A stretch of DNA of 46,698 nt, from positions 1-46,698 of the IMG/VR virus record IMGVR_UViG_3300042945_000819. The stretch is one strand, 5' to 3'. Positions 10,493-43,714 of this stretch are shown here, piece by piece. Origin of the DNA: a virus. The position numbers and the translations under genes are program-made. Under the pieces are notes generated by a model, which was not told where the DNA came from, made no database searches, and saw nothing but the letters and a program-made list of their open reading frames with translations. The first letter of the stretch is position 1, and every line of letters begins with the position of its first letter.

Positions 10493-11332
10493 ATGTCTAA
10501 CAATTATGAAGCAATTGCACTTGCAACATCTAAAGAAGTTTTAGGTGATGATAATGAGTTTATGCTTAAGGTTCTTCAAGAGGCAACTCGTTGGGAACAA
10601 AGTGAAACTGAACTCGCACAAGGTCGTTCAGATTTCCAGATTGAAAAGTTTATCATTCACGATAATTTCACAATTCCATCAGCATTTAAGGCAGCACTTG
10701 TCAATCGTAGAAGTGTAGCAGAAGGTCTTCTACAGCAAGTCATTGATGCAAAAAGAGCAGCAAGAGAATTTCATTATAAGTGGGACGGAAAAGATAAGAC
10801 ACAACCAATTTGGTGGAAAACAAGACAAGGTGGTGAAGAATTATCTTGGTATGATATTGATGAGTTTCATTTTCATCGTATGCTTGAGGGTTTGAATCGT
10901 GGGTTCAAAGCTTGTGTAGAAGAACTGGAGTGCTTTGATAAACTCATTAATCGTTTGGTTGAACTGAATGGTGGTAAGTTAATTACCAGAGAACAATATA
11001 ATGAAGACCAACCAAACTACTGGGAACGCAGACTTGCGAATCAATCACTTGATGATTTACTTGCCGCAAGAACTGGAGTAAATGCTGGTAATATTCGTTC
11101 AATGAGACGTGCAAGTGCTCCTACGGTTCTTACAGATGATGTCAATCGTACCAAAGGAACTTTTGGTGATCCAAATAATCCTATGGATTTCCTGAATAGT
11201 CTTCAGCAGGCAGTTGCTTCTGGTATTGAGGAGATTACTGGTATGGATCAACAACTTCTTCGTGGTGTTGAAGAACAAGAGCAAAAGCAAATTCCTCAAT
11301 CGTTATTCAATCCAGACCTTAAGATAGAGTAG
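10493..11332 (+). CDS. Conserved phage protein of unknown function, likely late
   Basis: 279 aa, largely alpha-helical and charged, with an N-terminal half rich in Lys/Glu/Arg helices (VIDAKRAAREFHYKWDG) and a Pro/Gln-rich tail. There is no signal peptide, membrane segment or catalytic motif that I recognise. It lies between a glycosyltransferase and a propeller gene, with its own late-type promoter, so a virion or assembly role is likely. A chaperone or adaptor for the propeller proteins would fit but is not shown. Confidence 0.65.
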   Translation: MSNNYEAIALATSKEVLGDDNEFMLKVLQEATRWEQSETELAQGRSDFQIEKFIIHDNFTIPSAFKAALVNRRSVAEGLLQQVIDAKRAAREFHYKWDGKDKTQPIWWKTRQGGEELSWYDIDEFHFHRMLEGLNRGFKACVEELECFDKLINRLVELNGGKLITREQYNEDQPNYWERRLANQSLDDLLAARTGVNAGNIRSMRRASAPTVLTDDVNRTKGTFGDPNNPMDFLNSLQQAVASGIEEITGMDQQLLRGVEEQEQKQIPQSLFNPDLKIE

Positions 11333-18079: not shown

Positions 18080-18850
18080 ATGAACGAAAAATTAATAAAT
18101 TTTCCCCCAGTTTATTATATTTCTTTAAGTGATTCTACCGACAGACAACAATCATTTGAAAATCAATTTATTTTAAATGGAATTGAAAATGTAAAAATGA
18201 TTGAAGCATATGATGGTAGGAAAGAAGATTATAGGAATAAACCCGATATTGTTGATGGTCTTCATTTTGAGTCTATGGATTCTGGTGCAATTGCTGCTAC
18301 AATTTCCCATTTAAAAGCAATATCAGAGTGGTATTATAATTCAGATTCTGATTATGCAATCTTTTTTGAAGATGATATGGCAATAGAATCTATAAATTAT
18401 TGGAATTTCAATTGGCAAGAATTTGCTAAAGAATTACCAAAAGATTGGAATGTAATTCAATTATCATTAATTAAATCAGAGATTCAAGAAAGTGATATGA
18501 AATTGAATCATAGAAATTGGGATATAAATTGGTCTGCAGGAAGTTATTTAATTAAAAAAACTTATGCTAAAAAATTAATAGATTTATATTTTAATAATGA
18601 AAAATATTTTTTAAAAGTTGAATATAATGAGGAAACAATTCCTTATATAGAAACTATTTTGTTTTCTCCTGCAGTTAAAAATGCATATACAATTCCCTTA
18701 TTTTATGAAAATATAAATTTTGCTTCAACTTTTTACCCACATTTTATTCAATCAACTCATAAAGGAACTCAAATTGACTCTTCAAATTATGTTCGTTATT
18801 GGTGGAAAATAAAAGGGAAAGAATTAACTTTAAATGATTTAAAGTTATAA
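18080..18850 (+). CDS. Glycosyltransferase family 25-like protein
   Basis: 256 aa. PPVYYISLSDSTDRQQSFENQF is the GT25 N-terminal signature (LPS galactosyltransferases and collagen Hyl-galactosyltransferases share it), EAYDGR follows at ~45, and FFEDDM near residue 97 is the acidic metal site. The ATG at 18080 is chosen because GGAGG lies 7 nt upstream; a TTG six bases earlier is in frame. It is the last gene of the glycan operon and overlaps nothing. GT25 also modifies collagen in animals, which is suggestive beside a collagen-like fibre, but the acceptor is unknown. Confidence 0.75.
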   Translation: MNEKLINFPPVYYISLSDSTDRQQSFENQFILNGIENVKMIEAYDGRKEDYRNKPDIVDGLHFESMDSGAIAATISHLKAISEWYYNSDSDYAIFFEDDMAIESINYWNFNWQEFAKELPKDWNVIQLSLIKSEIQESDMKLNHRNWDINWSAGSYLIKKTYAKKLIDLYFNNEKYFLKVEYNEETIPYIETILFSPAVKNAYTIPLFYENINFASTFYPHFIQSTHKGTQIDSSNYVRYWWKIKGKELTLNDLKL

Positions 18851-18863
18851 TTTATCTTCAAAC

Positions 18864-18891
18864 CTAACAGAGTGATTTTAGTTAGATTTTT
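18864..18891 (+). terminator. Weak intrinsic terminator after the GT25 gene
   Basis: CTAAC and GTTAG form a 5-bp stem with a 12-nt loop, followed by ATTTTTAT. The stem is short, so termination is probably partial. Confidence 0.4.
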
Positions 18892-18906
18892 ATGTCTTGT
18901 CAACAC

Positions 18907-18935
18907 TTGACACTCAAAAGTTGTTGATGTATGAT
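18907..18935 (+). promoter_or_regulatory. sigma70-type promoter for a small RNA
   Basis: TTGACA at 18907-18912 and TATGAT at 18930-18935 are separated by exactly 17 nt. No start codon with a good RBS follows before the strong terminator at 19015; transcription would begin near 18942, at the base of the first hairpin. Confidence 0.7.
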
Positions 18936-18941
18936 GAAAAG

Positions 18942-19037
18942 GTCTTCGCAACTTCGTAGCTTTGAGTTGCAAGACCCGTCCTGTGGTGGGGACGGATTTC
19001 AAGGTGGAACAACGGGGGTCTCTGACCCCTTTTTTTT
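18942..19037 (+). ncRNA. Putative ~95-nt structured small RNA
   Basis: The segment lies between a consensus promoter and an intrinsic terminator and carries no plausible ORF. Hairpin 1 pairs 18941-18953 with 18965-18976 (12 bp with one bulged C, 11-nt loop). Hairpin 2 pairs CCGTCC (18976-18981) with GGACGG (18990-18995). The terminator is a third stem. A single-stranded linker (about 18996-19013, ATTTCAAGGTGGAACAAC) could be a target-binding region. It does not fold as a tRNA. I do not recognise a known RNA family. Confidence 0.6.
19015..19037 (+). terminator. Strong intrinsic terminator
   Basis: GGGGTC and GACCCC enclose a TCT loop and are followed by eight T residues. It ends the small RNA and insulates the endonuclease gene downstream. 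Confidence 0.85.
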
Positions 19038-19044
19038 ATAAATA
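19037..19044 (+). promoter_or_regulatory. T4-type late promoter (TATAAATA)
   Basis: An exact late box that begins in the last T of the terminator, 24 nt before the ATG at 19068. Confidence 0.7.
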
Positions 19045-19067: not shown

Positions 19068-19763
19068 ATGAAAAATACTTATTATACTTATGCTTGGTTA
19101 AGAGAAGATAAGACCCCTTACTATGTTGGTAAAGGTATTGGTAATAGAGCATATCGTTCTCATAAAAGAGGCAATAAATATATGCCTTCTCCACCAAAAG
19201 ATAGAATAATATTTTTAAAGAAAAATCTAACGGAGTTTGATGCATATAAGCACGAAAATTATATTATCACTATTTTGGGTTTAAAAAGTGAAGGTGGTTT
19301 ATTGATTAATATGTCTTATGGTGGAGAAGGAAGTTCTGGAAGAAAACCTAGTGAATATTGTATTGAAAGAACTAAACAAGCAAATATAGGGAAAACTCTT
19401 ACCGAAGAACATAAGAAAAAGGTTTCGCAACAAGTATCTCAAAGGAGATGGTGGAATAATGGAGAAATAGACAAGCATACTATTGAATGTCCTGGTGATG
19501 GATGGGTTCTTGGTAGATTATTTAATTCTAAAAGTGAGAAATACAAAACAAAAGATTTTGCTGAAAAGTCAAGAAGAACCAATTTGGGGAAAATTGTTAG
19601 TGATGAAACAAAAATGAAACAAAGTCAAAAAAGAAAAGGAAGAAAGTGGTGGAATAATGGAGATAAAACAAAGTTATGTTATGAATGTCCTGGTGATGGT
19701 TGGGTTCAAGGAAGACCTGGACCACTTTTCCAAGTGTCCATTCGGGAATCCCAAGAGCAGTAG
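19068..19763 (+). CDS. GIY-YIG homing endonuclease
   Basis: 231 aa. YYTYAWLR and YYVGKGIGNR form the GIY-YIG catalytic start, and HENYIITILG near ~65 supplies the later acidic and aromatic residues. NUMOD3-like IGKTLTEEHKKKVSQ follows, and the WWNNG...ECPGDGWVxGR motif occurs twice (near 130-150 and 195-220). The ATG at 19068 is preferred over the GTG at 19059 because it is the one matching the sister gene at 27532. The last ~14 codons read through a regulatory cassette of the next operon. It makes a DNA break to spread itself. Confidence 0.85.
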   Translation: MKNTYYTYAWLREDKTPYYVGKGIGNRAYRSHKRGNKYMPSPPKDRIIFLKKNLTEFDAYKHENYIITILGLKSEGGLLINMSYGGEGSSGRKPSEYCIERTKQANIGKTLTEEHKKKVSQQVSQRRWWNNGEIDKHTIECPGDGWVLGRLFNSKSEKYKTKDFAEKSRRTNLGKIVSDETKMKQSQKRKGRKWWNNGDKTKLCYECPGDGWVQGRPGPLFQVSIRESQEQ

Positions 19764-19801: not shown

Positions 19802-21991
19802 ATGTCGGTAAATCTAGAAGTTAAAGGAATGCTGGCTAAATGCCTTGCGATGGAAAATATTATCATTGAGCATAAAAAAGTTCCAACTGCTATGTTTGAT
19901 GTTGAACGTAGGGTATTGACTTTACCGACTTGGGACAAAGCAAGTGATACGGTATATACACTTTTGGTTGCCCACGAAGTGGGCCATAGTTTGCATACCG
20001 ATAATATTGACTGGACAAAAGATTACCCAGAAGTGCCCAAAGACTTCGTAAATGTTCTGGAAGATGTTCGTGTAGAACGTCTGATGAAGAAGAAGTATCC
20101 TGGTCTGTCTAGGACTTTCTATAATGGTTATAATGAACTCAACAACGATGATTTCTTCTCCACCAAAGATGAGAAACTGGATGATTTGAGTTTTATTGAC
20201 CGAATTAATCTCTACTTCAAGATTGGTGCATTTCACAACATTGCCTTCAATGATGAAGAAAATGAGTTTCTGACTCGTGCTTCATTGACGGAAACCTTTG
20301 ATGAAGTTCTGCAACTTTCCCGTGATATTGTTGAGTTTGTAAAATACAAAAGGCAAAAAATCAGCAATATGCCCACTCCTGGTGGTAGTGAAGAAATGTC
20401 TGGTCCTGGTGGGGAAGAAGTAGAAACTCCTCAACAAACGTCTTCATCTGAAGATGGTGATAATTCTAACGGAAAGAACAAAACTGAATTGGATCAAGAC
20501 TCACAGGGACAGTCTCAATCTGAAGGTGAATCTTTCGGTGAAGAAATGTCCAAGTCTATTGAAGCACCAGAGGGTGGTGGATTCGGGCAAGACCCAAGTG
20601 ATAAGCACGGAAAAACTCTTGAAGATGAACTGTCATCTAAAACTTCTCGTTCTTTTGATGAAAAGTCTAAAGATTTGGTGGATAAGTATGCTCAAGAAAC
20701 TCATTATGTGGAACTTCCTAAGATGAATCTTGAGACAATGATTATTCCCAATAATTATATTCATTATAAAGCAAAAGAGCATTACGCAAGTGTTGGTTCT
20801 TGGGTTCGTGATGCTTATGACCTTGCTTGTAAGGAATATAATACCTACAAGAAATCAGCAGAGAAAGAAGTTTCTTATCTGGTAAAGGAGTTTGAGTGCA
20901 AGAAGTCTGCTGACCAGTATGCTCGTTCTAGTGTTGCTAGAACTGGTGTTCTTGATACACAGAAACTTCATACTTACAAGTTTAACGAAGACCTGTTTAA
21001 GAAAGTTTCTGTAGTCCCTGATGGCAAGAATCACGGTCTTATCTTCATTCTTGACTGGTCTGGTTCAATGGGTGAATTCATTCTGGATGCATACAAGCAA
21101 CTTCTAAATCTCATTTGGTTCTGCCGTAAGGTGAATATTCCTTTTGAGGTTTATGCTTTTACTCTTGATTGTCATTCTTATGCAGAACTTCAACCAAATC
21201 ATCCTCCTGTCTATGAAAGGGTTGCAAATGTTCTATCACCTGAGAATTCTTTCCGTTTGATGAACTTCTTCACCAGCAAAACAAATACTCGTGTTCTTGA
21301 AGAACAACTGAAAAATATTTGGGTTGCTTGTTACTTCTTTCAAAAGAAAATGGGTTCTGTTCCTCGTCATCTTGACCTTTCTGGTTCTCCTATTGGTGAA
21401 TCTCTGATGGCACTACACTCTTTGATTCCTGATTTCCAGGCAAAGAATAAACTACAAAAGGTCAATGTCATCTTTCTGACTGACGGGGAAGGGTATCAGA
21501 ATTCAGTGACAACTGAAAGAAAACTTGGAGATGGTACAACCAGAATTGGTCATACCAAACACTCTCGGACTTCAATTCGTGATCGTAAGACTGGTAGAAT
21601 CTATCAACCTTTGAATTACGATAACTTCCCTTTGTATGCTAAAGTTCTTCTTCAAACAGTCAAAGATAAGTTCCCTATGGTGAATGTGATTAACTTCCGT
21701 ATCACCCCTAGTCGTGATTTTTCAAACTGTTATCGTTGGTATGGTGGGGGTCAGTCTTCGGAATACGAAAAAATCAAAACTGATTATCGTAAGGAAGGTT
21801 GTGTTCAATTTCAAAACACTGGGTTTGACCAATTCAATGTGGTTCTTGCATCTTCTCTTGCTCAAGATGAAGAGTTCTCTGTTCCTGAGAATGCAACAAA
21901 GTCCCAGATTAAATCATCATTTGTGAGGATGTTGGGTAAGAAGAAAACTAACAAGAAACTGCTCAGCAATTTTATTACTCTAGTTGCCTGA
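19802..21991 (+). CDS. Zn-metallopeptidase / vWA-domain (CobT-like) protein
   Basis: 729 aa. HEVGH at 58-62 is a gluzincin-type zinc site in an N-terminal domain. Residues ~185-280 are an acidic, Ser/Gln/Glu-rich linker. DWSGSMGEF (~418) is the MIDAS metal site of a von Willebrand A domain, with LTDGE further on. In T4-like cyanophages this gene neighbours cobS. The arrangement of a MoxR/CobS AAA ATPase with a vWA partner is that of the CobS-CobT pair and of MoxR-vWA chaperones. Cobalt chelation is not shown; a remodelling or assembly role is an alternative. Confidence 0.75.
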   Translation: MSVNLEVKGMLAKCLAMENIIIEHKKVPTAMFDVERRVLTLPTWDKASDTVYTLLVAHEVGHSLHTDNIDWTKDYPEVPKDFVNVLEDVRVERLMKKKYPGLSRTFYNGYNELNNDDFFSTKDEKLDDLSFIDRINLYFKIGAFHNIAFNDEENEFLTRASLTETFDEVLQLSRDIVEFVKYKRQKISNMPTPGGSEEMSGPGGEEVETPQQTSSSEDGDNSNGKNKTELDQDSQGQSQSEGESFGEEMSKSIEAPEGGGFGQDPSDKHGKTLEDELSSKTSRSFDEKSKDLVDKYAQETHYVELPKMNLETMIIPNNYIHYKAKEHYASVGSWVRDAYDLACKEYNTYKKSAEKEVSYLVKEFECKKSADQYARSSVARTGVLDTQKLHTYKFNEDLFKKVSVVPDGKNHGLIFILDWSGSMGEFILDAYKQLLNLIWFCRKVNIPFEVYAFTLDCHSYAELQPNHPPVYERVANVLSPENSFRLMNFFTSKTNTRVLEEQLKNIWVACYFFQKKMGSVPRHLDLSGSPIGESLMALHSLIPDFQAKNKLQKVNVIFLTDGEGYQNSVTTERKLGDGTTRIGHTKHSRTSIRDRKTGRIYQPLNYDNFPLYAKVLLQTVKDKFPMVNVINFRITPSRDFSNCYRWYGGGQSSEYEKIKTDYRKEGCVQFQNTGFDQFNVVLASSLAQDEEFSVPENATKSQIKSSFVRMLGKKKTNKKLLSNFITLVA

Positions 21992-34370: not shown

Positions 34371-34745
34371 ATGCCTAGAAAAAGAAAAACTTCTGCTGAT
34401 TGTGATATAATACGAGAGTATCAACGCAATTGGTTGAAAGACAAACTTAAAAATGACCCCGAGTACAAAGCAAGGCATTATGCCAACAGGCAAAATCGAG
34501 CAAAACAAAACAAAGAAAATTTAACTAATTTAAAAGAAAATATTTCTTGTTCTGCTTGTGGAGAATATCATCCCTCGTGTTGTATGGACTATCATCATTT
34601 AGATCCAAGTGTAAAAGAAAAGGGTGTGTCTCAAATGATACAAGGAAATTCTTGGCAAAAAATTGAAGAAGAAATTTCTAAATGTATTTTAGTATGTTCA
34701 AATTGTCATCGTAAAATACATGAAGGTCTAATCACGCTCGTTTAG
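34371..34745 (+). CDS. HNH homing endonuclease (124 aa)
   Basis: The ATG at 34371 (MPRKRKTSAD) is preferred over 34350, which lies in the hairpin arm and probably upstream of the late start site. The motif CSACGEYHPSCCMDYHHLDP...CILVCSNCHRKIHEG gives two CxxC zinc knuckles and the H-N-H active site (DYHHLDP, CSNCHRKIH). A basic N-terminus (RKRKT; RQNRAKQNKEN) binds DNA. The stop codon (TAG) is formed by bases 8-10 of the following tRNA-Met, with a 10-nt overlap. It is a free-standing homing enzyme between tRNAs. Confidence 0.85.
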   Translation: MPRKRKTSADCDIIREYQRNWLKDKLKNDPEYKARHYANRQNRAKQNKENLTNLKENISCSACGEYHPSCCMDYHHLDPSVKEKGVSQMIQGNSWQKIEEEISKCILVCSNCHRKIHEGLITLV

Positions 34746-34807
34746 CAATCTGGGAATGCAATCGTCTCATAAACGATAGAAGGTCGGATCGTAACCGACA
34801 ACGAGCA
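34736..34807 (+). tRNA. tRNA-Met (CAU)
   Basis: Acceptor GCTCGTT/AACGAGC, anticodon stem ATCGT/ACGAT with loop CTCATAA, T arm GTCGG/CCGAC, T loop ATCGTAA (an A instead of the usual T), A73. All pairs perfect. The 5' end overlaps the HNH endonuclease stop. Confidence 0.85.
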
Positions 34808-34808
34808 C

Positions 34809-34837
34809 TTGACAATCAAAGCACACTCTGCTATGAT
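34809..34837 (+). promoter_or_regulatory. Consensus sigma70 promoter for tRNA-Ile/Leu
   Basis: TTGACA (34809-34814), 17 nt, TATGAT (34832-34837). The next tRNA begins at 34848. A second tRNA promoter just after the mobile endonuclease would restore transcription of the downstream tRNAs. Confidence 0.85.
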
Positions 34838-34847
34838 TGTCTTATAA

Positions 34848-34922
34848 GGGACTGTTGCTTATTGGTTAAAGCCCACTGCTTATAACGGTGTGAACAGAGT
34901 TCAATTCTCTGCAGTCCTACCA
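34848..34922 (+). tRNA. tRNA-Ile (UAU)
   Basis: Acceptor GGGACTG/CAGTCCT (G1-U72), anticodon stem CACTG/CGGTG with loop CTTATAA, T arm CAGAG/CTCTG with TTCAATT. Unlike most of the array it encodes CCA (34920-34922). UAU reads AUA; most bacteria use a lysidine-modified CAU instead. Confidence 0.8.
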
Positions 34923-34923
34923 A

Positions 34924-35266
34924 GCGAGTATGGTGGAATCGGTAGACACACCAGACTTATGAAAATTGAGCCTCATTTGAGAAATCTTATGAGTGTAATT
35001 CCTCAAATTCGGTGAAACCTGTAAAATGGCAATACCGAGCGAAGTTGCAAGACAGTTGGAAAGACAACGGCTACCCAATGTGCTTCTAGAGAGGGTTGGA
35101 ATTATCTAGAAAATGCAAAACGTGTAGAGACTAGACGGGGAACACCTAAACTGAAAGGTATGGTGAAGGTATAGTCCAGACCACAAACCGAAAGGGTAGT
35201 GAAAACTATAGTGGTAAGAAAATCTGTTGGGCATTGCCCGTGGGAGTTCAAGTCTCCCTACTCGCA
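34924..35266 (+). tRNA. tRNA-Leu (UAA), interrupted by a group I intron
   Basis: Exon 1 is 34924-34958 (GCGAGTA ... CCAGACTT), exon 2 is 35219-35266 (AAAATCTG ... TACTCGC A). Spliced, the anticodon loop is CTTAAAA with UAA, the variable arm is long (TTGGGC-ATT-GCCCG), and T arm GGGAG/CTCCC is perfect. The intron lies between U34 and A35. Confidence 0.92.
34959..35218 (+). other. Group I intron (IC3-like), 260 nt
   Basis: It follows U (5' exon CTT) and ends with G (GGTAAG). Conserved elements are in order: ATTGAGCCT start, P/Q pair (TTCGGTGAAACC and GGCAATACCGAGC), R element GTGTAGAGACTAGACGG (~35123-35139) and S element AAGGTATAGTCC (35166-35177), with P7 formed by GACTA/TAGTC. From memory, the order and wording match the Anabaena and chloroplast tRNA-Leu introns closely. 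No ORF lies inside. Confidence 0.9.
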
Positions 35267-38138: not shown

Positions 38139-38210
38139 GGGACATTAACTCAGCGGTAGAGTATCCGGCTTTTAACCGGTTAGTCCTCGGTTCGAATCCG
38201 AGATGTCCCA
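38139..38210 (+). tRNA. tRNA-Lys (UUU)
   Basis: Acceptor GGGACAT/ATGTCCC, D arm ACTC/GAGT, anticodon loop CTTTTAA (one T-T mismatch at 27-43), T arm CTCGG/CCGAG, A73. Confidence 0.9.
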
Positions 38211-38214
38211 TCGT

Positions 38215-38305
38215 GGGAGAGTGGCTACTGCTGGCAATATGTGTGGCTGCGGTCTGTAAAACCGTTACATAAGAACCATCGGGGGTTCAATTCCCTCCTC
38301 TCTCA
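38215..38305 (+). tRNA. tRNA-Tyr (GUA)
   Basis: Acceptor GGGAGAG/CTCTCTC, anticodon stem GCGGT/ACCGT with loop CTGTAAA, long class II variable arm, T arm GGGGG/CCCTC, A73. The D region is unusually long. Confidence 0.8.
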
Positions 38306-38309
38306 CCTT

Positions 38310-38382
38310 GGCCTCTTAACTCAGCGGTTAGAGTGTCTGCCTGTCTAGCAGAAAGTCAGGGGTTCGAATCCCCTAGGGGTCG
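38310..38382 (+). tRNA. tRNA-Asp (GUC)
   Basis: Acceptor GGCCTCT/AGGGGTC with G-T pairs, anticodon stem TCTGC/GCAGA, loop CTGTCTA, T arm AGGGG/CCCCT, G73. Confidence 0.9.
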
Positions 38383-38439
38383 TTGGAGATTTATCTCCAT
38401 ATTCCAGGTAATCTAACATTATTTTAGATTACTCTGCGT
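38383..38439 (+). other. tRNA spacer with two hairpins
   Basis: TGGAGA/TCTCCA (38385) and GTAATCTAA/TTAGATTAC (about 38408-38431) form clean stems between tRNA-Asp and tRNA-Glu. No promoter or ORF. Probably processing-related. Confidence 0.5.
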
Positions 38440-38511
38440 GGTCCCATCATCTAAGGGTTAGGATACCAGATTTTCAATCTGGGCATACGGGTTCGAATCC
38501 CGTTGGGACTA
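38440..38511 (+). tRNA. tRNA-Glu (UUC)
   Basis: Acceptor GGTCCCA/TGGGACT, anticodon stem CCAGA/TCTGG, loop TTTTCAA, T arm ACGGG/CCCGT, A73. Confidence 0.9.
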
Positions 38512-38515
38512 CCTT

Positions 38516-38589
38516 GGGAACATAGCTCCAACTGGTAGAGCACAGGGCTGAAGACCTTGGTGTTGTCGGTTCGAATCCGACTGTTCCCA
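38516..38589 (+). tRNA. tRNA-Phe (GAA)
   Basis: Acceptor GGGAACA/TGTTCCC, anticodon stem CAGGG/CCTTG, loop CTGAAGA, T arm GTCGG/CCGAC, A73. Confidence 0.9.
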
Positions 38590-38710
38590 CTTGACCTTTA
38601 TGGTCACGGAGATTCACTTCCTCCGTTATGAAACTTTGGTTGGTTAGTGATAGGTTTTTCAGTCCGAAAACTGAAACTGGTAGGTTGTTGATATCGACTC
38701 CTACCTTGAT

Positions 38711-38782
38711 GGAATCGTAGCTCAGTGGTAGAGCACTCGGCTGATAACCGAGCGGTCACAAGTTCAAATCTTGTCGGTTCCA
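38711..38782 (+). tRNA. tRNA-Ile (GAU)
   Basis: Acceptor GGAATCG/CGGTTCC, anticodon stem CTCGG/CCGAG, loop CTGATAA, T arm ACAAG/CTTGT, A73. The 121-nt spacer before it (38590-38710) has only small hairpins such as GGTAGG/CCTACC. Confidence 0.9.
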
Positions 38783-38783
38783 T

Positions 38784-38832
38784 TGTTGTCTTGAAGCAAC
38801 TTAAATCGCACTTAGGATGCTTCAAGACAACA
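38784..38832 (+). other. Perfect 15-bp inverted repeat between tRNAs
   Basis: TGTTGTCTTGAAGCA (38784-38798) and its exact complement (38818-38832) flank a 19-nt loop between tRNA-Ile and tRNA-Ser. No T-run, so not a terminator; possibly a processing or RNase III site. Confidence 0.75.
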
Positions 38833-38836
38833 TTAA

Positions 38837-38925
38837 GGAAGTGTGGCAGAGTGGCTTATCGCAGAATCCTGCTAAGATTCCGTGTCAAGTAATTGGCACC
38901 GTTGGTTCAAATCCAACCACTTCCG
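38837..38925 (+). tRNA. tRNA-Ser (GCU)
   Basis: Acceptor GGAAGTG/CACTTCC, anticodon stem GAATC/GATTC, loop CTGCTAA, long variable arm, T arm GTTGG/CCAAC, G73. Confidence 0.9.
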
Positions 38926-38927
38926 TT

Positions 38928-39012
38928 GGAGAGTTGTCCGAGTGGTTTATGGTGAGATCTTGGAAAGGTCTTGTGTGTAACAGCACCAGAGGTTCGAATC
39001 CTCTACTCTCCG
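38928..39012 (+). tRNA. tRNA-Ser (GGA)
   Basis: Acceptor GGAGAGT/ACTCTCC, anticodon stem AGATC/GGTCT, loop TTGGAAA, class II variable arm, T arm AGAGG/CCTCT, G73. Two bases after the preceding tRNA. Confidence 0.9.
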
Positions 39013-39014
39013 TT

Positions 39015-39086
39015 GGCAGTGTAGTTCAGTGGTAGAACAAGAGATTCATACCCTCTATGTCGGTAGTTCAATTCTACCCACTGCCT
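39015..39086 (+). tRNA. tRNA with CAU anticodon (Met or Ile2)
   Basis: Acceptor GGCAGTG/CACTGCC, anticodon stem AGAGA/CCTCT (A-C at its base), loop TTCATAC, T arm GGTAG/CTACC, U73. With three CAU tRNAs in the array, one may be a lysidine-type tRNA-Ile. Confidence 0.8.
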
Positions 39087-39087
39087 T

Positions 39088-39159
39088 GTGTCGTTAGCCT
39101 AGTGGTTAAGGCAGTAGTTTGTGGAACTACCTAGATGGGTTCAATTCTCATACGACACA
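39088..39159 (+). tRNA. tRNA-His (GUG)
   Basis: Acceptor GTGTCGT/ACGACAC, anticodon stem GTAGT/ACTAC, loop TTGTGGA, T arm ATGGG/CTCAT. Position -1 is T and 73 is A, not the usual G-1:C73 of His tRNAs. Confidence 0.85.
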
Positions 39160-39193
39160 TTGAATTCTAATAAATAATGTTATTAGGGTTCAA
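39160..39193 (+). promoter_or_regulatory. 14-bp hairpin overlapping a late box, upstream of HNH endonuclease
   Basis: 39160-39173 pairs with 39180-39193 (14 bp including two G-T pairs), loop ATAATG. AATAAATA (39169-39176), a 7/8 late box, spans the left arm and loop. The ATG at 39202 lies 8 nt after the right arm, so tRNA read-through RNA would sequester the ribosome site while late transcripts would lack the left arm. Confidence 0.6.
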
Positions 39194-39201
39194 TTTTTAA
39201 A

Positions 39202-39741
39202 ATGAAACATCATCATCATATTATACCAAAACATATGGGAGGTTCTGATTCTACAGAAAACTTAATCGAATTGAGTATTACTCAACACGCAATGTTTCAT
39301 TATTGTAATTGGAGATTGTGGGGTAAAGTAGAAGATGAATTGGCTTGGAGGGGGTTGGTAAAATATTTACCAAAAAAAGAAATTATTTCCAAACTTATTG
39401 CGGAAAGTAATAGAAATAGACCCCACTCCCAATTATCTAAAGATGTTAGTAGTAAACTTCTTAAGGAAAGGTGGAATGACCCAGAATTCAAAATAAAACA
39501 AATAGAATTATTGAGAAAAATGTCTCCTAATGCAAGATTGTTGGCTTGCACTCCTGATGCTATTGAAAAGAAAAAAAAGACATTACAGAGAATAGGACAT
39601 CAACAAGGAGAAAAAAATTCTATGTATGGTAAAATGTGGATTACTGATGGAACAAAAGAAGGTTCTTATCGAATAGATAAAAATCAAGATATTCCAGAAG
39701 GGTTTAGAAAAGGTAGAGTATTATCAAATCCCGCCCGATAA
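39202..39741 (+). CDS. HNH-type homing endonuclease (179 aa)
   Basis: 179 aa. HHHHIIPKHMGGSDSTENLIELSITQHAMFH is the HNH core (HHIIPKHMGGS...NLIEL...QHAMFH), followed by a NUMOD3-like ending MYGKMWITDG. The rest is basic and helical. It lies inside the tRNA array; its stop TAA uses bases 7-9 of the following tRNA-Thr (overlap of 9 nt). It probably spread by homing into the tRNA locus. Confidence 0.85.
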   Translation: MKHHHHIIPKHMGGSDSTENLIELSITQHAMFHYCNWRLWGKVEDELAWRGLVKYLPKKEIISKLIAESNRNRPHSQLSKDVSSKLLKERWNDPEFKIKQIELLRKMSPNARLLACTPDAIEKKKKTLQRIGHQQGEKNSMYGKMWITDGTKEGSYRIDKNQDIPEGFRKGRVLSNPAR

Positions 39742-39803
39742 GCATTGTGGTGATGCAGCAGTTTAGTAAACTGCAGAGAACAGTTCAATTCTGTTATTGG
39801 GCT
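39733..39803 (+). tRNA. tRNA-Thr (AGU)
   Basis: Acceptor GCCCGAT/ATTGGGC, D arm GCAT/ATGC, anticodon stem GCAGT/ACTGC with loop TTAGTAA, T arm AACAG/CTGTT with TTCAATT, U73 as in the second Thr tRNA. Anticodon A34 is rare in bacteria outside Arg(ACG). Confidence 0.8.
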
Positions 39804-39806
39804 CTT

Positions 39807-39831
39807 AACTATCTGGAAATTCCAGATAGTT
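39807..39831 (+). other. Perfect 11-bp hairpin between tRNAs
   Basis: AACTATCTGGA and TCCAGATAGTT around an AAT loop, between tRNA-Thr and tRNA-Cys, without a T-run. Confidence 0.7.
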
Positions 39832-39836
39832 CAAAT

Positions 39837-39910
39837 GTTCAGGTGGCAGAGTGGTCAAATGCGGAAGTCTGCAAAACTTCTTATCGTGGGTTCAAATCCC
39901 ACCCTGAACT
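39837..39910 (+). tRNA. tRNA-Cys (GCA)
   Basis: Acceptor GTTCAGG/CCTGAAC, anticodon stem GAAGT/ACTTC, loop CTGCAAA, T arm GTGGG/CCCAC, U73 as expected for Cys. Confidence 0.9.
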
Positions 39911-39915
39911 CCTAA

Positions 39916-39987
39916 TCCAGAATCGACTAACTGGCAGGTCAGCACCCTTTGAAGGTGTACGTCTAGGTTCGAATCCTAGTTCTGGAA
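39916..39987 (+). tRNA. tRNA-Gln (UUG)
   Basis: Acceptor TCCAGAA/TTCTGGA, anticodon stem GCACC/GGTGT, loop CTTTGAA, T arm CTAGG/CCTAG, A73. Gln-type U1-A72 start. Confidence 0.9.
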
Positions 39988-39991
39988 CTAT

Positions 39992-40065
39992 GCCCGATTG
40001 ATGGAATTGGTATACATACTTGCCTTAGAAGCAAGGTTTTACAGGTTCGAGTCCTGTATCGGGCA
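39992..40065 (+). tRNA. tRNA-Leu-like (UAG) with short variable loop
   Basis: Acceptor GCCCGAT/ATCGGGC, anticodon stem CTTGC/GCAAG with loop CTTAGAA, T arm ACAGG/CCTGT, A73. The D arm looks Leu-like but only 5 nt (GTTTT) separate anticodon and T stems, so the long Leu arm is missing. Confidence 0.8.
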
Positions 40066-40069
40066 CCTA

Positions 40070-40141
40070 GCAGGATTGGTGTAATTGGTAGCACGAGAGT
40101 CTCCAAAACTTTTAGTAGAAGTTCAAATCTTCTATCCTGTG
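40070..40141 (+). tRNA. tRNA-Trp (CCA)
   Basis: Acceptor GCAGGAT/ATCCTGT (G1-U72), anticodon stem AGAGT/ACTTT, loop CTCCAAA, T arm AGAAG/CTTCT, G73. Confidence 0.9.
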
Positions 40142-40145
40142 CCTT

Positions 40146-40219
40146 GTCCTCTTAACTCAGTGGAATAGAGTGCTTGGCTACGAACCAAGAAGTCGCAAGT
40201 TCGAATCTTGCAGAGGACG
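40146..40219 (+). tRNA. tRNA-Arg (ACG)
   Basis: Acceptor GTCCTCT/AGAGGAC, anticodon stem CTTGG/CCAAG, loop CTACGAA, T arm GCAAG/CTTGC, G73. A34 is normally edited to inosine. Confidence 0.9.
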
Positions 40220-40248
40220 TTGACTTTCCTTAGAAAGTCATATATACT
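40220..40248 (+). promoter_or_regulatory. sigma70-type promoter (TTGACT-17-TATACT)
   Basis: TTGACT (40220-40225), 17 nt, TATACT (40243-40248). A GACTTTC-CTTA-GAAAGTC hairpin overlaps the -35 region. It drives the small gene at 40335 and perhaps the tRNAs after it. Confidence 0.6.
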
Positions 40249-40334
40249 ATTGATAGAGGTTAAGTCCCTGTTATATCCTTATGAGATATATCACACTTAA
40301 TCCATCAAACACACAAACACACAGGAGTAAAAGA

Positions 40335-40538
40335 ATGTCACCTTACGAACTACGATTTGAGATTTTTAAGCAAGCATATGCATTTGCTAACGATAAGTTT
40401 AGCATTGAATATGATACTGCCCGTTGTTGGAATGAAAATTCTATGAATACGGTTAAGATGGATTATCCAGATTTTCCTACATATGAGTATATTGAGCAAC
40501 TTGCAGAGAAAATCAACACTTTTGTAAGTTCTAAATGA
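40335..40538 (+). CDS. Small phage protein in the tRNA array (67 aa)
   Basis: The ATG at 40335 has AGGAG 9 nt upstream; the in-frame ATG at 40281 lies before the RBS. 67 aa: MSPYELRFEIFKQAYAFANDKFSIEYDTARCWNE... and EYIEQLAEKINTFVSSK, a helix-rich fold similar in style to short T4-like phage proteins. Function unknown. Followed by a hairpin AGGGTG-ATAA-CACCCT at 40545-40560. Confidence 0.65.
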   Translation: MSPYELRFEIFKQAYAFANDKFSIEYDTARCWNENSMNTVKMDYPDFPTYEYIEQLAEKINTFVSSK

Positions 40539-40544
40539 TAAAAT

Positions 40545-40562
40545 AGGGTGATAACACCCTTT
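40545..40562 (+). terminator. Short stem-loop after the small gene
   Basis: AGGGTG-ATAA-CACCCT followed by TT only; a weak terminator or an RNA-processing hairpin ahead of tRNA-Ser. Confidence 0.4.
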
Positions 40563-40577
40563 AAAGATAGATTATAA

Positions 40578-40664
40578 GGAAGGTCAATCCGATTGGTGAC
40601 GGAACCGCTCTTGAAAAGCGTTGAGGTGTTAAAGCCCTTGGGAGTTCGACTCTCCCACCTTCCG
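40578..40664 (+). tRNA. tRNA-Ser (UGA)
   Basis: Acceptor GGAAGGT/ACCTTCC, anticodon stem CCGCT/AGCGT (C-T at 27-43), loop CTTGAAA, long variable arm, T arm GGGAG/CTCCC, G73. Confidence 0.9.
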
Positions 40665-40685
40665 TTGCTTCTTATGAAGCATAAT

Positions 40686-40757
40686 GCCCTTGTAGCACAA
40701 TGGTAGTGCATCTCACTTGTAATGAGAAGGTTGCAAGTTCAAATCTTGTCGGGGGCT
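40686..40757 (+). tRNA. tRNA-Thr (UGU)
   Basis: Acceptor GCCCTTG/CGGGGGC, anticodon stem TCTCA/TGAGA, loop CTTGTAA, T arm GCAAG/CTTGT, U73. Confidence 0.9.
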
Positions 40758-40758
40758 T

Positions 40759-40778
40759 GACAGAATTTCGATTCTGTC
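40759..40778 (+). other. UUCG-capped hairpin between tRNAs
   Basis: GACAGAAT-TTCG-ATTCTGTC, perfect 8-bp stem with a UUCG loop; very stable, no T-run. Confidence 0.7.
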
Positions 40779-40793
40779 TTACAATCAAATAAT

Positions 40794-40865
40794 GCGAAAT
40801 TAATTCAGCGGTAGAATGTCTGCCTTCCAAGCAGAACGTCAGGAGTTCGAATCTCCTATTTCGCT
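40794..40865 (+). tRNA. tRNA-Gly (UCC)
   Basis: Acceptor GCGAAAT/ATTTCGC, anticodon stem TCTGC/GCAGA, loop CTTCCAA, T arm AGGAG/CTCCT, U73. Confidence 0.9.
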
Positions 40866-40868
40866 CCA

Positions 40869-40940
40869 GGGTGATTAACTCAGTGGTAGAGTTTCTCGTT
40901 TACACCGAGACAGTCGGGGGTTCGAATCCCTCATCACCCA
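40869..40940 (+). tRNA. tRNA-Val (UAC)
   Basis: Acceptor GGGTGAT/ATCACCC, anticodon stem TCTCG/CGAGA, loop TTTACAC, T arm GGGGG/CCCTC, A73. Confidence 0.9.
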
Positions 40941-40943
40941 CCA

Positions 40944-41017
40944 CGGGATGTAGCTCAACTTGGTAGAGTGCTTGATTTGGGTTCAAGATGTTGCAGGTTC
41001 AAATCCTGTCATCCCGA
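40944..41017 (+). tRNA. tRNA-Pro (UGG)
   Basis: Acceptor CGGGATG/CATCCCG (C1-G72, typical Pro), anticodon stem CTTGA/TCAAG, loop TTTGGGT, T arm GCAGG/CCTGT, A73. Confidence 0.9.
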
Positions 41018-41056
41018 CTTGGAGAACTAAATATCTCCAAATACTACAAATTCATT

Positions 41057-41212
41057 ATGTCCTTAATTTCACAAAGAGATAGAGAAGTTGTAATTGAAGC
41101 ACTGGACTTTTATCTTTTCAATAAAAAATTTGATTTTACTGAAGAAAAAAGAATGGAGTTAAATTCACTTCTGAATTGGATTAAAATCGAATACAATAAG
41201 AATGAAAATTAA
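41057..41212 (+). CDS. Small helical protein in the tRNA array (51 aa)
   Basis: The ATG at 41057 avoids overlap with tRNA-Pro. 51 aa: MSLISQRDREVVIEALDFYLFNKKFDFTEEKRMELNSLLNWIKIEYNKNEN, two helices. Overlaps the next ORF by 11 nt. Function unknown. Confidence 0.55.
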   Translation: MSLISQRDREVVIEALDFYLFNKKFDFTEEKRMELNSLLNWIKIEYNKNEN

Positions 41213-41363
41213 TCTTTGGTACTGTAAAGAAATGAAGCAATGGAGATGGACTTTATGTGAAGATTCTCGTCCAATTGTTAAACAAGAATCAGGACAAAGA
41301 GAAGATTTACGAGATGCTATGAATGACGTAGCAAATACTGTTGAGTATTTAATGAATACTTGA
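41202..41363 (+). CDS. Small Trp-rich phage protein (53 aa)
   Basis: 53 aa: MKINLWYCKEMKQWRWTLCEDSRPIVKQESGQREDLRDAMNDVANTVEYLMNT. The strand NLWYCKEMKQWRWTL followed by a helix is a compact alpha/beta unit typical of conserved short cyanophage proteins. It overlaps the previous gene and ends 9 nt before tRNA-Asn. Confidence 0.6.
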   Translation: MKINLWYCKEMKQWRWTLCEDSRPIVKQESGQREDLRDAMNDVANTVEYLMNT

Positions 41364-41372
41364 CATTCTTAT

Positions 41373-41444
41373 TCCCCTGTAGCTCAGCGGTAGAGTCGTC
41401 GGCTGTTAACCGATTTGTCGCAAGTTCGAATCTTGCCGGGGGAG
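41373..41444 (+). tRNA. tRNA-Asn (GUU)
   Basis: Acceptor TCCCCTG/CGGGGGA, anticodon stem GTCGG/CCGAT, loop CTGTTAA, T arm GCAAG/CTTGC, G73. Confidence 0.9.
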
Positions 41445-41467
41445 TTGGATATAAATTATCCAAATAT

Positions 41468-41542
41468 CGTGGGGAAGTGTAACGGTTGCACAGAAATCTC
41501 ATAAGCTTCAGGTTGGTGGTTCGATTCCACCCCCCGCCACCA
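41468..41542 (+). tRNA. tRNA with CAU anticodon and mismatched 1-72 (initiator-like)
   Basis: Acceptor CGTGGGG/CCCCGCC leaves C1 opposite C72, the unpaired end typical of initiator tRNA. Loop CTCATAA, T arm GGTGG/CCACC, A73 and an encoded CCA. It lacks the three GC pairs of an initiator anticodon stem (GAAAT/GCTTC), so it may instead be Met or Ile2. Confidence 0.75.
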
Positions 41543-41546
41543 AAAT

Positions 41547-41619
41547 GGGGGATTAGCTCAATTGGTAGAGCAGAGTCTTTGCAAGGCTAAGGTTAGGAGT
41601 TCGAGTCTCCTATCTTCCA
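41547..41619 (+). tRNA. tRNA-Ala (UGC)
   Basis: Acceptor GGGGGAT/ATCTTCC, anticodon stem GAGTC/GGCTA (G-A at 27-43), loop TTTGCAA, T arm AGGAG/CTCCT, A73. Last tRNA of the array. Confidence 0.88.
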
Positions 41620-41648
41620 CTTTACAAAAATCAGATTCTTTGATACTA

Positions 41649-41654
41649 TATAAT
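41649..41654 (+). promoter_or_regulatory. -10 element of the tmRNA gene (TATAAT)
   Basis: TATAAT in an AT-rich stretch 30 nt after tRNA-Ala. TTTACA at 41621-41626 is 22 nt upstream, too far for a good -35. Transcription would start near 41661. Confidence 0.5.
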
Positions 41655-41660
41655 AAGTTC

Positions 41661-41714
41661 AAGAGGATGTGACCTCTATATTCCAGGACATCGGGGCAGT
41701 ACCGATTATCTCCA
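41661..41714 (+). ncRNA. ssrA: Permuted tmRNA, acceptor piece
   Basis: It starts with a hairpin AGAGG/CCTCT, then TTCCAG (3' strand of P2, pairing with CTGGGG of the coding piece), then a T-arm ATCGG-GGCAGTA-CCGAT, then the acceptor strand TATCTCC and discriminator A (41714). TATCTCC pairs over 7 bp (one G-T) with GGGGATA that opens the coding piece downstream. The T loop is unusual (GGCAGTA, not TTCAANN). Only 6 nt (TTTCTT) separate it from the coding piece. The order acceptor-before-coding is that of two-piece tmRNA of picocyanobacteria. The CCA must be added after processing. Confidence 0.85.
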
Positions 41715-41720
41715 TTTCTT

Positions 41721-41880
41721 GGGGATAAATTAGAATCGACTGGGGTTTATGTTGTATCTGTTGACGGGACAAAAAACAAACGCAAACAAAATTGTTGCAT
41801 TCACTCGTCAGACTGCTTTAGTCTGACCTAAAATGAGTGAAGGGGGTTTGTAAGTTTCCTTCTGATCCAAAACTTGTACT
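41721..41880 (+). ncRNA. ssrA: Permuted tmRNA, coding piece with tag ORF
   Basis: GGGGATAAATTAGAATCGACTGGGG is the conserved 5' tRNA-like start of tmRNA. The tag reading frame begins at GCA 41782 and ends at TGA 41824-41826: ANKIVAFTRQTALV. Picocyanobacterial tags, as I recall them, read ANKIVSFSRQTAPVAA, so 11 of 14 residues match, but the end PVAA is replaced by LV. The stop lies in hairpin TCAGACT/AGTCTGA, enclosed by TTCACTC/GAGTGAA (P5). A further 8-bp stem follows (41850-41857 with 41870-41877). Confidence 0.88.
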
Positions 41881-43309: not shown

Positions 43310-43714
43310 ATGGCAACACGTTCTCGAATTGGAATCCAACTTTCTGATGAGTCTGTTCTCTCTGTGTATCATCATTGGGACGGGATGCCTTCTTGGTTGG
43401 GTCGTATTCTGAATACTCACTACAATACCAGAGAGAAAGTTGCAGAACTGATTGATGGTGGTGATATGAGTTCTTGCTGGACTGATACTCCATTTAATTA
43501 TGATGGAACTCCATCTGAGTATGGTCCTAATTATTACTCTTATCGTGGTGATGATTGTCCTCCTCGGCACGATGCAAATAAGTATGATTATCTTGCCGAG
43601 GGTGAAGAGTATGCCTATCTCTACACTCTGAATGATGAGTGGGTATGTTATGCTCTTAATGAGAATGATTATCCCACAGTTGTTGAAATTCCTTCTGGTG
43701 CCCTTGCGGTTTGA
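43310..43714 (+). CDS. Conserved phage protein (RSRIG...HWDG family), 134 aa
   Basis: 134 aa: MATRSRIGIQLSDESVLSVYHHWDGMPSWLGRILNTHYNTREKVAELIDGGDMSSCW. The RSRIG....SVY.HWDG.P...G..L..HYN...KV..LI..GD pattern recurs in many unrelated large phages, as I recall. It is followed by an acidic half (EGEEYAYLYTLNDEW). Probably early; function not known. Confidence 0.75.
   Translation: MATRSRIGIQLSDESVLSVYHHWDGMPSWLGRILNTHYNTREKVAELIDGGDMSSCWTDTPFNYDGTPSEYGPNYYSYRGDDCPPRHDANKYDYLAEGEEYAYLYTLNDEWVCYALNENDYPTVVEIPSGALAV

Follow-up and report, generated by a model that had tools for sequence, protein, structure and literature searches.

A candidate family of free-standing, structured small RNAs in T4-like cyanophages

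Few small RNAs have been described in cyanophages, and in the accessible literature none is apparently free-standing and trans-acting. The cyanophage RNAs listed there are CfrI, PhotoRC-II, wcaG, manA, glnA, a glutamine riboswitch and abiF. Cyanophage S-PM2 encodes the antisense RNA CfrI (Millard et al. 2010, cited from PMC12197685), which is about 225 nt long and lies in cis-antisense orientation between psbA and the endonuclease gene F-ChpI. Both CfrI and the small RNA that we describe here are non-coding, come from T4-like cyanophages and adjoin a homing endonuclease gene; the present RNA, in contrast, is shorter, at about 96 nt, and lies in an intergenic position away from psbA. The wcaG, manA, glnA, PhotoRC-II and abiF RNAs have been detected in cyanophages by Rfam, and the first three are classed as cis-regulatory (PMC9964418). 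These are also structured RNAs in cyanophage genomes, but none of them matches the present site at Rfam gathering scores. Among phage small RNAs more broadly, AgvB/EcOnc01 and 24B_1 target host RNA or metabolism in trans, with AgvB working as a decoy (PMC12197685). They share with the role proposed below that they are small, phage-encoded and trans-acting, but they come from enterobacterial prophages or temperate phages and have no known sequence relation to the present RNA. Yfr1 and Yfr2 are small RNAs of picocyanobacteria, the likely hosts, and like the phage RNA they are short hairpin RNAs with conserved exposed motifs. To our knowledge their motifs differ from those of the phage RNA; neither is matched by Rfam at the site, and a scan of about 85,000 genomes with one pattern returned no host homologue.

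The stretch of DNA analysed here (the window) comprises 46.7 kb of a T4-like cyanophage genome. The original prediction had placed in it a free-standing structured RNA that has a promoter and a terminator to itself and may be regulatory, and this reading is now supported by conservation of the hairpins in relatives. A search of Rfam 15, which had been proposed as a check, returned no family for the window's site or for six other loci, at either gathering or relaxed thresholds; the best weak match at the site scored 19 bits against a cutoff of 50. No small RNA of this form is among the RNAs described for cyanophages in the literature that we searched, mostly non-subscription papers, and the genome paper of the freshwater Synechococcus phage S-SRM01, an isolate that carries a copy, does not mention non-coding RNA. 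We assign the RNA to an undescribed family within the phage small RNAs. The unit and its neighbours in the window are as follows.

18080-18850: glycosyltransferase family 25 gene, the upstream neighbour
18875..18880, minus strand: -10 box TAAAAT of a divergent promoter, spaced 17 nt from its TTGACA
18898..18903, minus strand: TTGACA, the -35 box of the divergent promoter, which adjoins the small-RNA promoter in the opposite orientation; present also in L001, L014, L121 and other IMG/VR loci
18907..18912, plus strand: -35 box TTGACA of the small-RNA promoter
18930..18935, plus strand: -10 box TATGAT of the small-RNA promoter, at a spacing of 17 nt
18942..19037, plus strand: predicted small RNA of about 96 nt, with +1 at G18942 and its end in a T run; covariance model score 103 bits
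18942..18975, plus strand: hairpin H1, with a covarying stem and a nearly fixed base, GUCUU/AAGAC
18952..18966, plus strand: H1 loop motif CUUCGUAGCUUUGAG, family form CUUYGYRNCUUUGAG
18976..18995, plus strand: hairpin H2, with two-sided changes at all 6 conserved pairs in the family
18983..18988, plus strand: H2 loop motif GUGGUG, invariant or nearly so in the family
18996..19013, plus strand: single-stranded linker of 18 nt with GGUGG (19003-19007), GUGG or AGUG in most members
19014..19037, plus strand: intrinsic terminator, made up of GC hairpin H3 (19014-19029) and eight T
19037..19044, plus strand: TATAAATA box of T4 type, overlapping the end of the T run and preceding the homing endonuclease gene; we take it to be a late promoter from what is known of T4-like phages
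19068..19763, plus strand: homing-endonuclease-like gene (matches to homing and HNH endonuclease families), an insertion that separates the small RNA from the core peptidase gene
19802..21991, plus strand: core peptidase gene (phrog_459, called cobT-like), the usual downstream neighbour

Folding of 18942-19037 as RNA gives three consecutive hairpins with an energy of -37.2 kcal/mol, in agreement with the two hairpins, linker and strong terminator of the original prediction. In the minimum-energy fold H1 has 13 pairs and a 1-nt bulge, with 11 pairs kept in the conserved structure, and H2 has 7 pairs, 6 of them conserved. This fold is moderately unusual by itself (z -2.5, or -3.0 for a longer piece). 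Promoter-like sites are frequent in the AT-rich DNA of the window, and in the 20 kb scanned they are not enriched as a class (87 found versus 76.6 +/- 7.9 expected); four sites in those 20 kb match at 11/12, the small-RNA promoter among them, and its terminator ranks first among the terminator-like sites listed there. If a complete unit is defined as an exact TTGACA, 16-18 nt, TANNNT and a GC-rich terminator downstream, the window has one and 100 shuffles have none. The evidence from the window alone, before relatives are compared, is modest; given its conservation in those relatives, the unit is beyond chance.

Relatives were sought in IMG/VR, beginning with neighbour-guided loci, and eight other loci of this kind have the same promoter-hairpins-terminator unit at the same place. 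Two degenerate loop patterns returned 23 and 66 contigs, and a covariance model (R1) gave 70 searched loci a score of at least 51.9 bits. By this model, homologues are present in at least 65 distinct IMG/VR contigs in addition to the window and the isolate S-SRM01, and a pattern based on H2 adds about nine further members. The S-SRM01 copy (10977-11074), the nearest annotated match to the window at this site, lies in an unannotated gap ahead of the glutaredoxin gene. Each searched record holds one strong copy, including those of S-SRM01 (241 kb) and G002 (247 kb). To examine promoters, 59 instances were chosen by their H1 and H2 letters alone, with no constraint on the promoter, and all 59 have an exact TTGACA, 17 nt and TANNNT, with the first base of H1 as +1. 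The promoter that the original prediction had read as TTGACA-17-TATGAT, with 6 nt between TATGAT and the start (G18942), is present in the window as described and is a property of the family. Promoters of this form are of the host sigma-70 type and serve as early phage promoters in T4-like phages.

Beyond IMG/VR, matches were few. BLAST of the 146-bp element against annotated phages gave no convincing match because the sequence diverges fast. A homologue scan of about 85,000 genomes, using one exact pattern only, gave 13 matches, which is about chance level; none exceeded 17 bits and none was titled as a cyanobacterium. Among the reference cyanophages scored, only Prochlorococcus phage P-SSM3 scored besides S-SRM01, at 30 bits; its element (HQ337021, 123910-124004), possibly a distant relative, combines a stem resembling H1 with a GUGGUG H2 but lacks a TTGACA promoter. 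P-SSM4 (AY940168, about 43340-43441) and P-RSM3 share only the 3' half of the P-SSM3 element, with H2 changed. The P-SSM3/P-SSM4 element is structured, RNA-like and intergenic, and lies ahead of a helicase gene in these Prochlorococcus phages. Matches of 16-27 bits elsewhere were rejected, being mostly a common cyanophage terminator-promoter module and not the small RNA.

The cleaner test of covariation is a plain MAFFT alignment of 19 members made from sequence only (A2), since our two larger alignments, of 51 and 47 rows, were fitted to the structure and the 51-row set includes a few low-scoring spurious rows. In A2, 92.5% of cells are paired, compared with 40-55% in slid controls, and two-sided changes number 25 versus 11.3 in shuffles. 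The 51 distinct model-aligned rows are 93.8% paired, with two-sided changes at 16 of 21 pairs and in 156 cells, versus 46.6 in shuffles; the 47 curated, model-fitted rows have 139 two-sided changes versus 42.6. Conservation of the hairpins in related phages, one of the checks that the original prediction had proposed, is strong, with covariation and a kept promoter together. Judged by these compensating changes, the structure of the small RNA is under selection.

The most conserved columns are the loops and the base of H1. Because our search patterns prescribed the letters of the H1 loop and some of those at the H1 base, their conservation is in part an ascertainment effect; the broader loop pattern left the H2 stem and changes in mid-H1 free. 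Members found without the loop pattern (the window, S-SRM01, L009 and L235-L244) keep the H1 loop, and their changes are almost all transitions. A GUGG motif recurs within the RNA, in the H2 loop and again in the linker or, in some members, the terminator loop. The linker at 18996-19013 had been put forward as the region for target prediction; it is conserved only in part (GUGG), and the H1 and H2 loops are better candidates for the active parts.

The RNA does not appear to encode a peptide. The earlier statement that the site contains no ORF is literally wrong, as a 36-codon ATG frame at 18931-19041 overlaps the small RNA, but it holds in the sense that there is no conserved coding frame. This ATG falls within the -10 box and so precedes the predicted +1; as the frame is not conserved either, we reject a peptide-coding reading. 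We found no internal reading frame common to the 51 distinct members, only 3 of which have an internal ATG frame of at least 12 codons, and the lengths of the RNA in relatives fall in all three classes modulo 3. With few internal ATG frames and no length constraint to multiples of 3, non-coding status is well supported by comparison of the family. A tRNA or tmRNA reading is also rejected, as the original prediction had it.

Conserved loops on covarying stems, free-standing signals and changing neighbours together suggest a trans-acting RNA. The RNA very probably functions as a regulator and belongs to a family that neither Rfam nor the accessible literature describes, and we lean towards a reading in which this phage-encoded, non-coding small RNA is made early by the host polymerase and acts in trans through its exposed loops. 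Early in infection, host RNA polymerase would recognise the TTGACA/TATAAT-type promoter and transcribe the unit up to the terminator, giving a stable RNA of about 96 nt. Less certainly, CUUYGYRNCUUUGAG in H1, GUGGUG in H2 and GGUGG in the linker may form the working surface, with the stems serving only to display the loops. The G-rich GUGGUG loop and the linker could then pair with C/A-rich, ACCACC-type sites close to mRNA start codons, whether in host or phage transcripts, and this pairing would block or redirect translation.

Comparison of the loops and linker with start regions in the window, the 247-kb G002 and S-SRM01 gave no target shared by the three phages, and no ACCACC site was found in phage psbA start regions of S-SRM01 and four other phages. 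In S-SRM01, the H2 loop can form a 14-nt duplex (-21.9 kcal/mol) with two identical leader hairpins. These belong to a conserved 5' leader hairpin, AGTTCACACCACTGAACCATG, that follows -10-like boxes and precedes several genes in 20 IMG/VR contigs (L248-L267) and in S-SRM01 (MW015081, about 89331 and 90315). None of the 20 contigs has a convincing copy of the small RNA, and since the leader is this widespread outside the family we do not claim the duplex as a target.

A protein partner fits the conserved loops equally well as an RNA partner. It is possible, if on balance unlikely, that the RNA is a protein-binding decoy akin to CsrB or RsmY, an abundant early transcript in which the GUGG and CUUUG loops, being repeated, would sequester an RNA-binding protein or a nuclease of host or phage. 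Such a decoy would account for conserved sequence held in loops by covarying stems, for the repetition of GUGG and for the lack of an antisense target common to the three phages; its motif, however, is not the GGA of CsrA sponges and occurs only two or three times, and no protein emerged as a candidate. We also entertain, as a rather doubtful proposal, a role in host takeover: the RNA would be made by the host immediately, and the GUGGUG kissing loop and the CUUUG loop would silence host mRNAs with ACC-ACC-rich starts, psbA-type genes being one guess, or disarm a host RNA-binding protein. If true, this role would explain why a single copy is retained across very different phages.

This single-copy family, spread over distinct cyanophage lineages, offers a direct handle on phage control of cyanobacterial cells, and it comes with a defined start, defined loops and a covariance model. 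Because the RNA is present in a cultured phage-host pair, S-SRM01 and Synechococcus KCZYC6, both its expression and its target are directly testable.

Across relatives the genes upstream of the small RNA are highly variable, and the downstream core gene is the peptidase or the glutaredoxin gene, usually about 40-45 nt past the small RNA. The order of promoter, structure, terminator and gene, and a start codon usually at that distance, are what one would expect of a cis-acting leader or attenuator, in which a conditional terminator sets read-through into the peptidase or glutaredoxin gene. We consider this very unlikely, as the two core genes are unrelated and occur in different phages, leaving no consistent downstream function, and a promoter-like box, TGNTATNAT or TATAAATA, directly follows the T run; an alternative pairing with the terminator was not apparent on inspection of the sequence. 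Endonuclease genes have, moreover, become wedged between the small RNA and the core gene with the small RNA kept: endonuclease-type or other inserts lie exactly 3' of the small RNA in the window, L100, L117, L124, L138 and L148. The same homing-endonuclease-like gene follows the terminator in the window and in L100. L088, which has no endonuclease gene, matches the window at 770 of 771 positions of the glycosyltransferase gene and differs at two positions of the H1 loop, and in L010 the small RNA is 93% identical to that of the window and the neighbouring glycosyltransferase gene 84%.

At the corresponding site, L002 has a terminator and a promoter-like box but no small RNA. A common cyanophage intergenic module, found at L002:4827-4913 and in L230, L153, L228 and L065, consists of GACAGTT-N6-AAGTGNCACA, a GC hairpin with a T run, and an extended -10 box, TGNTATNAT. 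The terminator of the small RNA, together with the box that follows, represents a variant of this module, and the small RNA therefore looks like a cassette of promoter, H1 and H2 placed before a common terminator-box module.

The divergent promoter at 18875-18903 on the minus strand is strong and is conserved together with a CACTCTGTTRGG leader; minus-strand genes start there in L001, L091 and L093, and none lies close by in the window. Many members (L096, L143, L003 and others) also have an inverted repeat around the -10 box, formed by the first 8-10 transcribed bases and their reverse complement within the promoter spacer (CCCTCAAGAC / GTCTTGAGGG). That the divergent promoters and hairpins form a DNA element, serving as a replication start, recombination site or landing pad, is highly improbable in our judgement. 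The inverted repeat, the position at the edge of highly variable upstream genes and the endonuclease genes inserted alongside would suit such an element, but the inverted repeat is missing in many members, the terminator is strand-specific, the pair changes are of RNA type and include G-U, and the spacing of promoter and start is kept. An antitoxin RNA of a type III toxin-antitoxin pair, which would share the order of structured RNA, terminator and gene, has next to no likelihood and is largely refuted by our survey of neighbours, as the small RNA has no tandem repeats and the genes downstream are core phage genes and not a toxin.

Elsewhere the window carries tRNA genes at 34736-35200 and 38139-41820, with a group I intron match at 34949-35200; the second region is a large cluster that includes a tRNA-Sec-like match (40578-40663) and a permuted tmRNA (41665-41820). 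Between 4230 and 13300, large ORFs, probably tail-fibre or adhesin genes, contain repeats of 141-147 bp in very long runs (TATGGTTATTTTGGTGGTGG, coding for Gly/Tyr-rich sequence).
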